Below, piece by piece: positions 30,978 through 34,145 of a stretch of 64,000 bases of DNA (positions are counted from its first letter, which is position 1; each line of letters starts with the position of its first letter). Origin of the DNA: Thermotoga petrophila RKU-1 (GTDB taxonomy: Bacteria > Thermotogota > Thermotogae > Thermotogales > Thermotogaceae); NCBI RefSeq assembly GCF_000016785.1, contig NC_009486.1:62001-126000 (forward strand). The letters are read 5' to 3'. The position numbers were made by a program, and so were the translations under genes. Below the pieces are notes generated by a model. The model was not told the origin of the DNA. It did no database searches and was given only the letters and a program-made list of their open reading frames with translations.

Positions 30978-31006
30978 TTACAATTAGAACCCAGAAAATG
31001 TAATAA
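30978..31006 (+). promoter_or_regulatory. Promoter of the first radical SAM gene
   Basis: TTACAA (30978-30983), 17 bases and TAATAA (31001-31006) form a good sigma-70 type promoter about 40 bases before the start of the plus-strand radical SAM gene. The region is divergent: the small gene and ABC ATPase gene leave on the other strand. Confidence 0.6.
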
Positions 31007-31045
31007 AACGTCTCCAGGGTTAAAATCTATCCTGGAGGTGATTGA

Positions 31046-32017
31046 ATGCGAAATCCACCTTTCATCGTGGAATACGAACTGACACTGCGATGTAACTTCA
31101 GGTGCAAACACTGCTACTGCAAGGCTGGAAAGCCCCATCCTGAAGAGTTGAGTTTTGAAGAAATAAAAGAACTGATACTTGACATGAAAGAACTGGGCAC
31201 CTGGGCTCTCGATATTGTAGGTGGCGAACCTCTCCTCCATCCTCAAATACTGGATATTCTTGCCTTTGGAAAAGAGGTCGGACAGCGTCTCATGATCAAC
31301 ACCAACGGATCGCTTGCCACCAAGGAAATGGTACAGAAAATAAAAAAGGCCAATCCCGACGTGCTTGTTGGTGTTTCTCTTGAAGGCCCAGAGCCCGAGA
31401 CCAACGATTTTGTGAGAGGAATCGGAAACTTCGAAAGAGCTGTTCAGGGCATCAAAAACTTCGTAAGTGAAGGGCTTCAAATCACCATTTTAAATGTGAT
31501 AAACAGGAGAAATTGGAGGAAATTCGAAAACATGGTAAAACTCGCACTGGAACTGGGAGTTAATGCTCTGTACGTAGATAGGTTCATACCAGTCGGAAGG
31601 GGCATGATCCATGCAAGAGAACTGGATATGAATCCAGAGGAATGGAAAGTAGCTATAAAACACGTTCTTGGAGTGATAGAAAACTACAAAGACTGCTTGA
31701 CATTTTACGTGGAAGAATCCATATCGGGAAGGCCGTGTTCCGCAGGAATCACGCACGCGTCGGTTCTGGTCGATGGCACAGTTGTTCCCTGTGGTCACTT
31801 CAGATATAGAAAGGAATTCTACATGGGGAACGTGAAAGAAAAGAAATTCTCGGAAATCTGGAACGAGTACACTCCTATTCCTTCCCCAACTTCCTGTCAG
31901 CAGTGTCCTATCCTGAACGAATGTGGTGGTGGTTGCAAAGCTTACTATCTGCTGAGAGGACGCGAAAAAGACGAAGCCCTCTGTTCTCTGAACAAAGCTC
32001 GATACAACATAAAGTAA
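31046..32017 (+). CDS. Radical SAM / SPASM domain protein
   Basis: The radical SAM cluster motif is CNFRCKHC (C16, C20, C23), followed by VGGEPLLHP as the SAM-binding GGE loop. The C-terminal SPASM domain has the full seven-cysteine set (C231, C249, C284, C287, C293, C297, C313) in the spacing C-x17-C...C-x2-C-x5-C-x3-C-x15-C, enough for two auxiliary iron-sulfur clusters. Such enzymes modify peptides, proteins or cofactors (PqqE, anSME, heme pathway types). No precursor peptide gene is convincing nearby. The start has CTGGAGGTGATT before it. It is the first gene of a three-gene plus-strand cassette with a second radical SAM enzyme and a TetR regulator. Confidence 0.9.
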   Translation: MRNPPFIVEYELTLRCNFRCKHCYCKAGKPHPEELSFEEIKELILDMKELGTWALDIVGGEPLLHPQILDILAFGKEVGQRLMINTNGSLATKEMVQKIKKANPDVLVGVSLEGPEPETNDFVRGIGNFERAVQGIKNFVSEGLQITILNVINRRNWRKFENMVKLALELGVNALYVDRFIPVGRGMIHARELDMNPEEWKVAIKHVLGVIENYKDCLTFYVEESISGRPCSAGITHASVLVDGTVVPCGHFRYRKEFYMGNVKEKKFSEIWNEYTPIPSPTSCQQCPILNECGGGCKAYYLLRGREKDEALCSLNKARYNIK

Positions 32018-32033
32018 CTTAAATGAAATCTGA

Positions 32034-32061
32034 TTGTCACTCTGTGTGCATAGAATATTTT
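32034..32061 (+). promoter_or_regulatory. Promoter of the second radical SAM gene
   Basis: TTGTCA (32034-32039), 16 bases and TATTTT (32056-32061) make a plausible promoter between the two radical SAM genes. The TetR-type palindrome begins at the last base of the -10 element, where bound repressor would block initiation. Confidence 0.55.
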
Positions 32062-32074
32062 TACCGACCGGTAA
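32061..32074 (+). promoter_or_regulatory. Palindromic TetR-type operator
   Basis: TTACCG-AC-CGGTAA is a perfect 6+6 inverted repeat with a 2-base centre. This is the shape seen for many TetR/AcrR-family operators. It lies at the transcription start expected for the second radical SAM gene, and a TetR-family gene follows that gene by 15 bases. Autoregulation of the radical SAM-tetR pair is the simplest reading. Confidence 0.75.
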
Positions 32075-32099
32075 GTAAAAAAAATATGGAGGTGATTCA

Positions 32100-33548
32100 A
32101 TGGCAGTAGGTGGAATCAAAGGAATGATCTATCACCAGGCGGGAAAACTCGTCGGTTCATTCGTTAAAAACGCTGAAGTGGAAACTCTTGGAAAGATCTT
32201 CGGTACTTTGAGCATGTTCACGAAGGAGCCCGCGAAGAGCGGCCTTCGAAAACTGGCTGACCTCGCAAAAGAAAGACATCCCATGGTGATGTCATGGGTG
32301 AACGTTTTCAAAAAAGCAAGTCCAAAGTGTGTTGAAGGGGTTATAAACAACCTGATCATCAACGAGTTCGCTCTCGGAGAACCTATCAGGCAGGAAAAGA
32401 TGCACGAGTACAAAACGGTGCTCCCAAAACTCCTCGTTCTGAGCCCTACATACGCCTGTAATCTGAACTGCGTTGGGTGCTATGCGGGACTTTACGGTAG
32501 AAAATACGAGCTCTCCCACGATGAAGTCAGAGACATCTTGAAACAGGCCAACGACCTGGGAATATACTTCTTCATCATCACCGGTGGTGAGCCCTTCTTC
32601 TGGCCTCACCTGATGGACATATTCGAAGAATTCAAGGACAGTTACTTCTTGGTCTACAGCAATGGAACTCTGATAAAAGAAGAAACCGCTAAGAAACTCT
32701 CAGAACTCGGAAATGTGACGGTTTCGATATCTGTGGAGGGTTTCGAAACTGACACAGACTGGAGAAGAGGAAGGGGAATATTCAAAAGAATCCTCGAAGC
32801 TTGGGAAAGACTCAGAAGACACGGTGTGATCTTTGGAGCTTCAGTGACAGCAACACGAATGAACCACGATACCATCATGAAGGATGATTTCTGGGATTTC
32901 CTCCAAGAACAGGGAGTCTCTTACGTGTGGATTTACCAGTTCATGCCTGTGGGAATGAATCCAACGATGGATCTTGTTCCCACACCGCAACAGAGATACG
33001 AAAGATTCCACAAACTTGAACAGCTCAGACTCAGCGGAAGATTCGCTTTCGTTGCCGATTTCTGGAACCACGGATTTCTCACTAACGGCTGTCTCGCAGC
33101 GGGTGCCAAGTACCTCCACATAAACGCAAAGGGTTACGTGGAACCTTGCGTCTTCCAGCAGTTCGCGGTGGACAGCATCCGCGAGAAAAAACTCATCGAC
33201 ATTCTGAGATCACCGTTCTTCGAAGCTTACAAGAGGATGATCCCCTACAGTGACAATCTCTTCAGACCGTGTCCAATAATCGACAATCCGAAAGTCTTCA
33301 GAGCCATGGTGAGGGCGTTCAACGCAAAACCACAGCACGAGGGATCCGAAAGGGTCATCACAGATCTTGCACCCGAGTTGGACAAACTCGCGGCCGAATG
33401 GAAGAAATACGCCGACAAACTCTGGTACGAAGAAGGGTACTCTGAGATCTATCCAGCCAACAGGGGAGTTTACAGTTACGAAGTGAGAATGAGAAAGTAC
33501 GCGGACAAAGAAAAGCTTCTCGCGGTGGACAAACGCTACAGGGACTGA
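32100..33548 (+). CDS. Radical SAM enzyme with 110-residue N-terminal extension
   Basis: A helical N-terminal region of about 110 residues precedes the radical SAM core: cluster motif CNLNCVGC (C120, C124, C127), GGE at 162-164 and SVEG near 211. Three further cysteines, C331, C350 (GYVEPC) and C391 (RPCP), suggest one SPASM-like auxiliary cluster. The C-terminal 90 residues are Lys/Tyr-rich. It is clearly different from the neighbouring radical SAM protein. In my judgement the architecture and the TetR partner are compatible with bacterial membrane-spanning lipid (diabolic acid) synthases, which are radical SAM enzymes. That assignment is inference only. A strong GGAGGTGAT site precedes the ATG. 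Confidence 0.88.
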   Translation: MAVGGIKGMIYHQAGKLVGSFVKNAEVETLGKIFGTLSMFTKEPAKSGLRKLADLAKERHPMVMSWVNVFKKASPKCVEGVINNLIINEFALGEPIRQEKMHEYKTVLPKLLVLSPTYACNLNCVGCYAGLYGRKYELSHDEVRDILKQANDLGIYFFIITGGEPFFWPHLMDIFEEFKDSYFLVYSNGTLIKEETAKKLSELGNVTVSISVEGFETDTDWRRGRGIFKRILEAWERLRRHGVIFGASVTATRMNHDTIMKDDFWDFLQEQGVSYVWIYQFMPVGMNPTMDLVPTPQQRYERFHKLEQLRLSGRFAFVADFWNHGFLTNGCLAAGAKYLHINAKGYVEPCVFQQFAVDSIREKKLIDILRSPFFEAYKRMIPYSDNLFRPCPIIDNPKVFRAMVRAFNAKPQHEGSERVITDLAPELDKLAAEWKKYADKLWYEEGYSEIYPANRGVYSYEVRMRKYADKEKLLAVDKRYRD

Positions 33549-33563
33549 TGTGGAGGGATCGAA

Positions 33564-34136
33564 TTGAGCTTCGAAACAAGAAAAAAAATCCTCGAAGCGG
33601 CAAGGAAAGCATTCTCAAAATACGGTTACGATGGAGTCAGCATGGAAGAAATCGCACGTGAAGCTGGTGTGAAAAAGGCTCTCATCTACTACTATTTTCC
33701 AAGCAAGGACAAACTTTTCGAAGAGATCTGGAGAGAAGCACTCGAGGAACTGGAGAGTCATCTTTTTTCCGTCACTGAAGAGACGAACTCCTACTTTGCG
33801 AAAATAAAAAAGTTTCTGAAGTCCTACGTCGACTTTGTTCTGAATAAGACCATTTTGAACGAAATCATCGAAAAAGAAAAATCGACCGTCAGATTCGAAA
33901 GAGAAAAGTGGTCGAAACTCAGAGAGCGTTATGAGAACTTCATAAAGCGAGTCGAAGAACTAATAGAAGAAGGGAAGAAGCAAAACTACGTTTACAAAGA
34001 TCTCGATTCCCGAGCTGCCGCGGAGCTGATAGTCAACTCGTTCGGAGACGTTCCAAAGGATAAGAGACTGCTTCAGAACATCCAGGAAATGATACTCAGA
34101 GGATTGCTCAATGTGAAAACAGAAGAGGGGCGTTAG
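33564..34136 (+). CDS. TetR/AcrR-family transcriptional regulator
   Basis: The N-terminal 50 residues form the TetR helix-turn-helix: KKILEAARKAFSKYGYDGVSMEEIAREAGV with the recognition helix KKALIYYYFPSKDKLFEE. The C-terminal 140 residues are an all-helical ligand-binding and dimer domain with high Lys/Glu content. It starts at a TTG 7 bases after GGAGG and follows the second radical SAM gene by 15 bases. It probably controls that gene through the palindrome at 32061-32074. Its stop codon lies in the loop of the terminator hairpin. Confidence 0.92.
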   Translation: MSFETRKKILEAARKAFSKYGYDGVSMEEIAREAGVKKALIYYYFPSKDKLFEEIWREALEELESHLFSVTEETNSYFAKIKKFLKSYVDFVLNKTILNEIIEKEKSTVRFEREKWSKLRERYENFIKRVEELIEEGKKQNYVYKDLDSRAAAELIVNSFGDVPKDKRLLQNIQEMILRGLLNVKTEEGR

Positions 34137-34145
34137 CCCCTCTTC
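34122..34145. terminator. Bidirectional terminator between tetR and pheT
   Basis: A 10-bp perfect stem (GAAGAGGGGC / GCCCCTCTTC) with loop GTTA separates the convergent tetR and pheT genes. The TAG stop of tetR falls in the loop and right arm. T-rich sequence follows better on the minus strand (TGTTTT) than on the plus strand. Confidence 0.75.

Follow-up and report, generated by a model that had tools for sequence, protein, structure and literature searches.

The gene rSAM2, which encodes a radical S-adenosylmethionine (SAM) enzyme, and the adjacent tetR gene of Thermotoga petrophila RKU-1 were analysed together with the DNA that precedes them. Both genes lie in a stretch of 64,000 nucleotides (assembly GCF_000016785.1, contig NC_009486.1, positions 62,001 to 126,000 of the forward strand), which is called the window here and to which coordinates refer unless a genome contig is given. 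A second radical SAM gene, rSAM1, precedes rSAM2 on the same strand. All three genes are present as open reading frames (ORFs) where a first-pass annotation of the sequence had placed them. The features of the locus are shown in Table 1.

Organisation of the locus

The product of tetR carries the Pfam domain TetR_N (75.6 bits against a cut-off of 24). rSAM2 matches Radical_SAM with 94.1 bits and shows a weak, partial match to SPASM (27.0 bits against a cut-off of 21.5), and its radical SAM core begins at about residue 115. rSAM1 matches Radical_SAM with 102.5 bits and SPASM with 40.5 bits. Seven C-terminal cysteines can be read directly from the rSAM1 sequence, which agrees with the seven-cysteine SPASM domain that had been annotated for the first enzyme. 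Among the matches listed, the NCBIfam cut-off was not reached by rSAM1 (25 of 79 matches), rSAM2 (25 of 56) or TetR (all 24).

Table 1. Features of the rSAM1, rSAM2 and tetR locus with their positions in the window.
Feature	Coordinates	Strand	Description
rSAM1	31046..32017	+	323-amino-acid SPASM radical SAM protein; neighbour, judged to be outside the functional unit
rSAM2	32100..33548	+	482-amino-acid radical SAM enzyme, probable membrane-spanning lipid synthase (Mss)
Five-helix N-terminal extension of rSAM2 (residues 1-112)	32100..32435	+	From structure models
tetR	33564..34136	+	190 amino acids; probable repressor of its own operon
Predicted TetR operator	32060..32075		Perfect palindrome TTACCGACCGGTAA at 32061-32074
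Direct repeat phased at 11 bp	32014..32040	+	Units at 32014, 32025 and 32036; overlaps the end of rSAM1; candidate activator box
Weak promoter-like TTGTCA-16-TATTTT	32034..32061	+	Not above chance in this strain
Terminator-like stem-loop	34122..34145	-	Between tetR and a converging pheT-like gene; terminator score computed for the minus strand only

Conservation of rSAM2 and TetR

The Thermotogota sample comprised 103 genomes, and the cut-offs were E <= 1e-30 for rSAM2, E <= 1e-40 for rSAM1 and E <= 1e-15 for TetR. rSAM2 was matched in 97 of these genomes (81 of the 82 more complete ones), TetR in 77 and rSAM1 in 36. The locus counts for TetR and the operator leave out L002 and L049, which come from the genome of L001, and L087, which has 82 bases of upstream sequence. 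TetR adjoins rSAM2 in 76 of the 82 Thermotogota loci with enough upstream sequence, lying downstream on the same strand in 60 and upstream in 16. In two deep families, five loci lack a TetR next to rSAM2, and the contig of one more locus ends too early. The durable unit is rSAM2 with TetR, and the pairing of two radical SAM enzymes is only local.

The three genes had been read at first as one cassette, and this part of the annotation was not upheld. rSAM1 adjoins rSAM2 in 8 of its 36 carriers, namely all seven genomes of the genus and G090, and a conserved pair of rSAM1 and rSAM2 was rejected because adjacency is confined to these genomes. The other 28 carriers have rSAM1 on the same contig but hundreds of kb away (six genomes), on a separate contig (21 genomes), or together with no rSAM2 at the cut-off (G102). 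No conserved neighbour of rSAM1 was found in nine loci outside the window, where its surroundings varied. A two-enzyme cassette under the local TetR would agree with the adjacent and co-directional genes of those eight genomes, but it is hardly credible to us given the 28 carriers with rSAM1 away from rSAM2 and the predicted operator that rSAM2 has for itself between the two genes. rSAM1 is a SPASM protein to which no substrate is assigned, and we judge that it is not part of the functional unit.

The TetR operator

The palindrome TTACCGACCGGTAA, which had been put forward as a matching operator, was found as placed and is the sole exact copy both in the window and in the 1,823,511-bp single-contig genome. 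A site that matches at least 12 of 16 positions is present within 180 bases of the rSAM2 start in 58 of the 60 loci with a downstream tetR. The two exceptions are a run of N and L045, which scores 10. In shuffled upstream regions, a score of 12 was reached in 10 of 1,660 draws, the 20 draws of the run of N having been taken off 1,680. Before information content and 11-bp repeats were counted, the loci were thinned at 80% or 75% identity. In the 51 loci used for information content, the operator reaches 1.57 bits per position, compared with 0.07 at positions -70 to -50. A chance palindrome is ruled out by this information content, by the shuffles and by the conservation of the site before rSAM2 across the phylum. 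That the palindrome is a phylum-wide TetR operator is strongly supported, with binding predicted from these sequence comparisons.

The five deep-family loci that have no adjacent TetR still keep the site before rSAM2 (scores 12 to 15). G006 and G007, which belong to one deep family, exhibit the exact site before an unlinked tetR as well as before rSAM2, and this ties the regulator to the site. The pattern TTKACYRAMCRGTMA has 102 exact matches in the 103 genomes, and 76 of them belong to the rSAM2 operon or to an unlinked tetR: 59 are no more than 450 bases ahead of rSAM2, 15 are 450-900 bases ahead of it and 2 precede the unlinked tetR. No regulon beyond the operon was found in these genomes, where 26 exact sites lie elsewhere against 36 matches of the reversed-pattern control (summed control columns), and the T. 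petrophila genome has one site.

The operator had also been described as lying on the start site of the rSAM2 promoter. This is clear in the relatives L009 and L010, which have a full TTGACA-17-TATAAT promoter (12 of 12) and an operator that begins two bases after the -10 box and therefore covers the transcription start there. In this strain the promoter does not stand out from shuffled sequence: three sigma-70-like promoters were found against a shuffle mean of 4.6, which is not above chance. Over the loci, a promoter match of at least 10 of 12 was found in 12 of 64, compared with 26 of 1,280 shuffles.

Two other operator-like sites were seen away from rSAM2. TTGACTGACCAGTCA is present in three Thermotoga genomes (G000:C1:1719690, G091:C1:1046196 and G093:C10:13647) and may belong to another TetR. 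TTGACTAACCGGTCA or a one-base variant of it is present in G024, G025, G028, G029 and G030 of genus g27 and is possibly a second target or the site of another regulator.

The arrangement differs in Petrotogaceae. All 16 loci examined in this family have a diverged TetR ORF directly upstream, which ends 7 to 100 bases before rSAM2 and has 31% identity over 85 residues of the DNA-binding half. Exact operators were found 450-900 bases before rSAM2, ahead of the upstream tetR, in 11 Petrotogaceae genomes. G039, G040, G041 and G044 of genus g32 carry two copies of the operator ahead of the upstream tetR, separated by about 140 bp.

The 11-bp upstream repeat

In the upstream regions, GTTAC- or GTAAC-like pentamers recur at 11-bp intervals, and their most frequent starting point is 43 bases ahead of the operator. 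A pair of pentamers at a spacing of 11 is present in 21 of 53 thinned loci, compared with 0 to 4 for every other spacing between 6 and 24. The shuffles give a mean of 0.11 and a maximum of 2 for the spacing-11 pair, in a control that is post hoc because the motif was first noticed by eye in nearly the same loci. The loci with the pair all belong to the order of the window (families f1 to f3). No regulon for the repeat was found with the strict triple box at one mismatch, which was located 7 times in the 103 genomes, including 3 times at rSAM2; the control gave 40 (summed control columns). Direct repeats of 11 bp are typical of OmpR/PhoB-type response regulators, and on this analogy our guess is that a candidate activator, perhaps of that type, reads the repeats.

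Cysteines and structure of rSAM2

Outside the window, the best 80 of 476 relatives of rSAM2 were kept. The cysteine alignment (A2) was made from 52 of these 80 loci and the window, which gives 53 sequences; L165 and others with odd starts were excluded, as were partial ones. Six cysteines are invariant in all 53 sequences. C120, C124 and C127 form the CX3CX2C motif, and C331, C350 and C391 are spaced C-X18-C-X40/41-C in 52 of the 53. With these three conserved C-terminal cysteines, rSAM2 does not have the full SPASM cysteine set. C331, C350 and C391 would hold an auxiliary cluster.

The aligned sequences have 87 to 146 residues ahead of the first core cysteine. The extension of rSAM2 has one cysteine, which is not conserved, and no cysteine before C120 is conserved. 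The structure model of rSAM2 reached a predicted local distance difference test score (pLDDT) of 92.6 and a predicted template modelling score (pTM) of 0.92. Modelled alone, the extension exhibits five helices, and no fold match to it was found at E <= 0.001. The helical N-terminal extension and the three extra C-terminal cysteines that had been noted for the second enzyme are borne out by this model and by the alignment.

Distribution of rSAM2 relatives

The best 80 of 476 relatives include loci from Enterobacterales, Photobacterium, Atribacterota, Bacillota, Latescibacterota and Synergistota, and further loci from Desulfobacterota, Actinobacteria, Omnitrophota and Woesearchaeota. Relatives are present in 144 of 299 genomes in the phylum of Desulfofundulus and in 10 of 194 genomes in the Woesearchaeota group. 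The published work on Mss that is cited here was available as excerpts. A Black Sea survey reported homologues of Mss in several bacterial phyla, with Actinobacteriota, Desulfobacterota, Latescibacteriota and Omnitrophota among them, and its sole archaeal homologues were those of Woesearchaeia (PMC11868695). The pattern of rSAM2 agrees with these published matches in several phyla, Woesearchaeota included, as far as the excerpts and the best 80 of 476 loci extend.

Mss has also been reported in many families of Bacillota including Caldicellulosiruptoraceae, with extended iso-diabolic acid in C. owensensis (PMC13274423). Two known producers of diabolic or iso-diabolic acid, G091 and G392, were checked for an rSAM2 homologue. 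We take G091 to be T. maritima and G392 to be probably Caldicellulosiruptor owensensis. rSAM2 has a match of 98% in G091 and a reciprocal best hit in G392 with 36% identity (E 1.3e-105). For the lipids of Petrotoga, Kosmotoga and Mesotoga, no mention of diabolic acid was found in the literature among the matches listed.

Homologues with about 50-53% identity are present in Enterobacterales and Photobacterium (L047, L048 and L092-L098). Two of the enterobacterial homologues are plasmid-borne, in Klebsiella pneumoniae and Escherichia albertii, and a blastn search of an Escherichia coli genome collection did not find the enterobacterial homologue. A TetR lies directly before the homologue in L128 (Atribacteria), and a protein that resembles a helix-turn-helix regulator by eye lies directly before the enzyme in L162 (Woesearchaeota) and L163 (Atribacteria). 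In eight of the 80 loci, all from Synergistota (L135, L136, L138, L139, L141, L142, L145 and L149), the enzyme is near genes that look by eye like secD/secF. In L134 and L165, the homologue is directly followed, with an overlap or after 85 bases, by a protein that by eye resembles a B12-binding radical SAM enzyme. The rSAM2 frame of G021 (contig 1, 2110959-2112389) has one internal TGA.

Identity of rSAM2

A radical SAM enzyme of T. maritima, Mss, has been reported as the bacterial membrane-spanning lipid synthase (Sahonero-Canavesi, 2022, via PMC13274423, PMC11604127, PMC11868695 and PMC11767167). rSAM2 is most likely the Mss of Thermotoga and hence an enzyme already in the literature. The first-pass annotation had proposed that the second enzyme couples lipid tails. 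The phyletic pattern, the presence in a probable producer, the cofactor anatomy and a partial elimination of other radical SAM genes all favour that proposal indirectly, and the accompanying remark that no function was established fails, since Mss has been published. As a whole, the explanation that rSAM2 is an Mss that makes diabolic acid, with a TetR that represses its own operon at TTACCGACCGGTAA, is one that we consider probable on the present comparisons.

The elimination began from 37 radical SAM matches in the genome, 34 of them over the Pfam cut-off, and 28 radical SAM matches in G392. At the published Mss cut-off (E <= 1e-30 and >30% identity, as given in the excerpts), 15 of the 37 frames are reciprocal best hits with G392, rSAM2 included. 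Among the other 14 frames, 12 reach an NCBIfam cut-off: MiaB, RimO, MtaB, HydE, HydG, BioB, HemW, RlmN, KamA, YgiQ, TIGR03960 and AmmeMemoRadiSam. No NCBIfam match was found for the other two at E <= 1e-40. To our knowledge, YgiQ, TIGR03960 and AmmeMemoRadiSam have no established function.

Several points weigh against the identification of rSAM2 as a TetR-controlled Mss. Its identity with the published Mss gene is probable and unconfirmed, being set by description and not by sequence; the gene number of T. maritima Mss was not found in the excerpts of PMC11604127, PMC11868695, PMC13274423, PMC8788747, PMC11767167 and PMC10821996. The elimination is incomplete because two frames are unnamed and three belong to the families for which we know of no function. 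Planctomycetota, Chloroflexota and Acidobacteria, which the excerpts name as phyla with Mss, are not among the best 80 of 476 loci. We know of no membrane-spanning lipids in Enterobacterales, yet rSAM2 homologues occur there. Of 16 genomes with rSAM2, 9 have the domain DUF2229, of the type in glycerol ester reductase (Ger), whereas the three from gammaproteobacteria all lack it. An exact operator was not found in 7 of the 16 Petrotogaceae loci. A membrane protein had been anticipated for this enzyme (PMC8788747, excerpts), and rSAM2 has no transmembrane-like stretch (best 19-residue hydropathy 1.14), a value on which an integral membrane protein was rejected. In its fold, rSAM2 resembles SPASM maturases (SkfB, Z 26.8, root-mean-square deviation (rmsd) 3.5 over 303 residues) more closely than it does the archaeal tetraether synthase Tes (7tol, Z 18.3, rmsd 3.2 over 244 aligned residues). 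Finally, one study that co-expressed mss and ger of T. maritima in E. coli obtained no membrane-spanning lipid; it cites earlier work as showing that each gene is active alone (PMC11604127, excerpts). In the T. petrophila genome, the single DUF2229 match (G000:C1:421807-422436) is within a 1,417-amino-acid frame outside the window, which is a candidate Ger.

The number of radical SAM genes, the five shared frames with no NCBIfam name or no known function, and the match to Mss by description also bear on another explanation. In this explanation, rSAM2 acts on a different lipid, an acyl compound or a small molecule, Mss is another gene, and a real TetR switch controls another reaction. The distribution of rSAM2 in Woesearchaeota and Omnitrophota fits the Mss matches published in the excerpts, and the invariant three-cysteine auxiliary cluster that we assume fits lipid coupling, so that we regard this explanation as unlikely.

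The fold bears on a further explanation, in which rSAM2 matures a ribosomally synthesised and post-translationally modified peptide (RiPP) as SkfB or SuiB does and TetR controls the modified peptide pathway. The best matches of rSAM2 in PDB, by sequence and by fold, are SkfB, SuiB and the anaerobic sulfatase maturases. No recurrent small gene was seen beside rSAM2, and regulators are the only recurrent neighbours over the phyla among ORFs of at least 80 amino acids; short precursor peptides could be missed because of this size limit. In addition, rSAM2 has three auxiliary cysteines and not the full SPASM set, and it is near-universal in the phylum, unlike most RiPP enzymes as we know them. We consider a peptide maturase quite improbable and retain Mss as the preferred identity of rSAM2.

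Proposed mechanism and significance

The mechanism below is proposed from the gene anatomy, the invariant cysteines, the phylum-wide linkage of TetR and the conserved operator, which are observed; the reaction, the role of the auxiliary cluster, DNA binding, co-transcription, the ligand and the activator are parts of the proposal. rSAM2 would make a 5'-deoxyadenosyl radical at the C120/C124/C127 cluster and would abstract a hydrogen close to the terminus of a polar lipid's C16 acyl tail. The tail radical may be parked on a second cluster that is held by only C331, C350 and C391, and its coupling with another tail would then yield diabolic acid. The five-helix N-terminal part may help to hold the lipid or the membrane. 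The tetR gene is probably co-transcribed with rSAM2. A TetR dimer is predicted to bind TTACCGACCGGTAA at the transcription start and to block transcription there, so that the operon would stay under its own repression until TetR is released by a ligand, which is probably an acyl lipid or a fatty acid. A second protein, perhaps the OmpR/PhoB-type activator, may read the 11-bp repeats.

A wider reading is offered tentatively. It combines a dedicated switch across the phylum, in which TetR senses lipids at the start site and an OmpR/PhoB-type activator acts on the 11-bp repeats in the order of the window, with a rearrangement or replacement of the repressor gene in Petrotogaceae, part of which retained a recognisable operator. 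Taken jointly, these parts are plausible but short of probable.

Membrane-spanning bacterial lipids underlie the climate proxies that are based on branched glycerol dialkyl glycerol tetraethers (GDGTs). In the excerpts of the Mss literature, nothing was found on what switches the synthesis of membrane-spanning lipids on, and among the literature matches listed, also seen as excerpts, there was no mention of a TetR switch for Mss. Within these sources, the regulatory module was not found, with its phylum-wide pairing of TetR and operator, its possible activator box and its TetR that one family has rearranged or replaced. Should rSAM2 be Mss, TetR and its operator would provide a defined predicted site, a candidate sensor and a testable class of ligand. 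Diabolic acids rise towards the stationary phase in T. maritima (PMC8788747, excerpts), and the operator and TetR could help to explain this rise. The spread of the enzyme, including Enterobacterales and Woesearchaeota, points to organisms whose lipids merit measuring.

Comparison with known systems

rSAM2 is similar to Mss in the radical SAM motif, the Thermotoga origin and the presence in a probable published producer, and the phyletic patterns agree in several phyla. Likened by description and distribution on the basis of the excerpts, the two exhibit no difference.

Tes, also known as GDGT-MAS (PDB 7tol), couples lipid tails, and the first tail radical is thought to be stored on its C-terminal auxiliary cluster (PMC9433317). 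Tes and rSAM2 both have the radical SAM core, and a three-cysteine C-terminal auxiliary cluster probably exists in rSAM2 as well. rSAM2 has no motifs of the rubredoxin domain or the N-terminal [4Fe-4S] domain and has the helical extension instead. These missing domains, together with the fold that is closer to SPASM maturases, count against membership of the Tes family proper.

The SPASM-type maturases SkfB, SuiB and the anaerobic sulfatase maturase anSME have a core fold similar to that of rSAM2. rSAM2 differs from them in having only three auxiliary cysteines, in its five-helix N-terminal extension and in that no recurrent peptide gene was seen nearby among ORFs of at least 80 amino acids.

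The regulator is similar to the local autoregulators of the TetR family, with a TetR_N domain, a gene within the operon and a palindromic operator at the promoter. It differs from them in its target, which here is a probable lipid-coupling enzyme.

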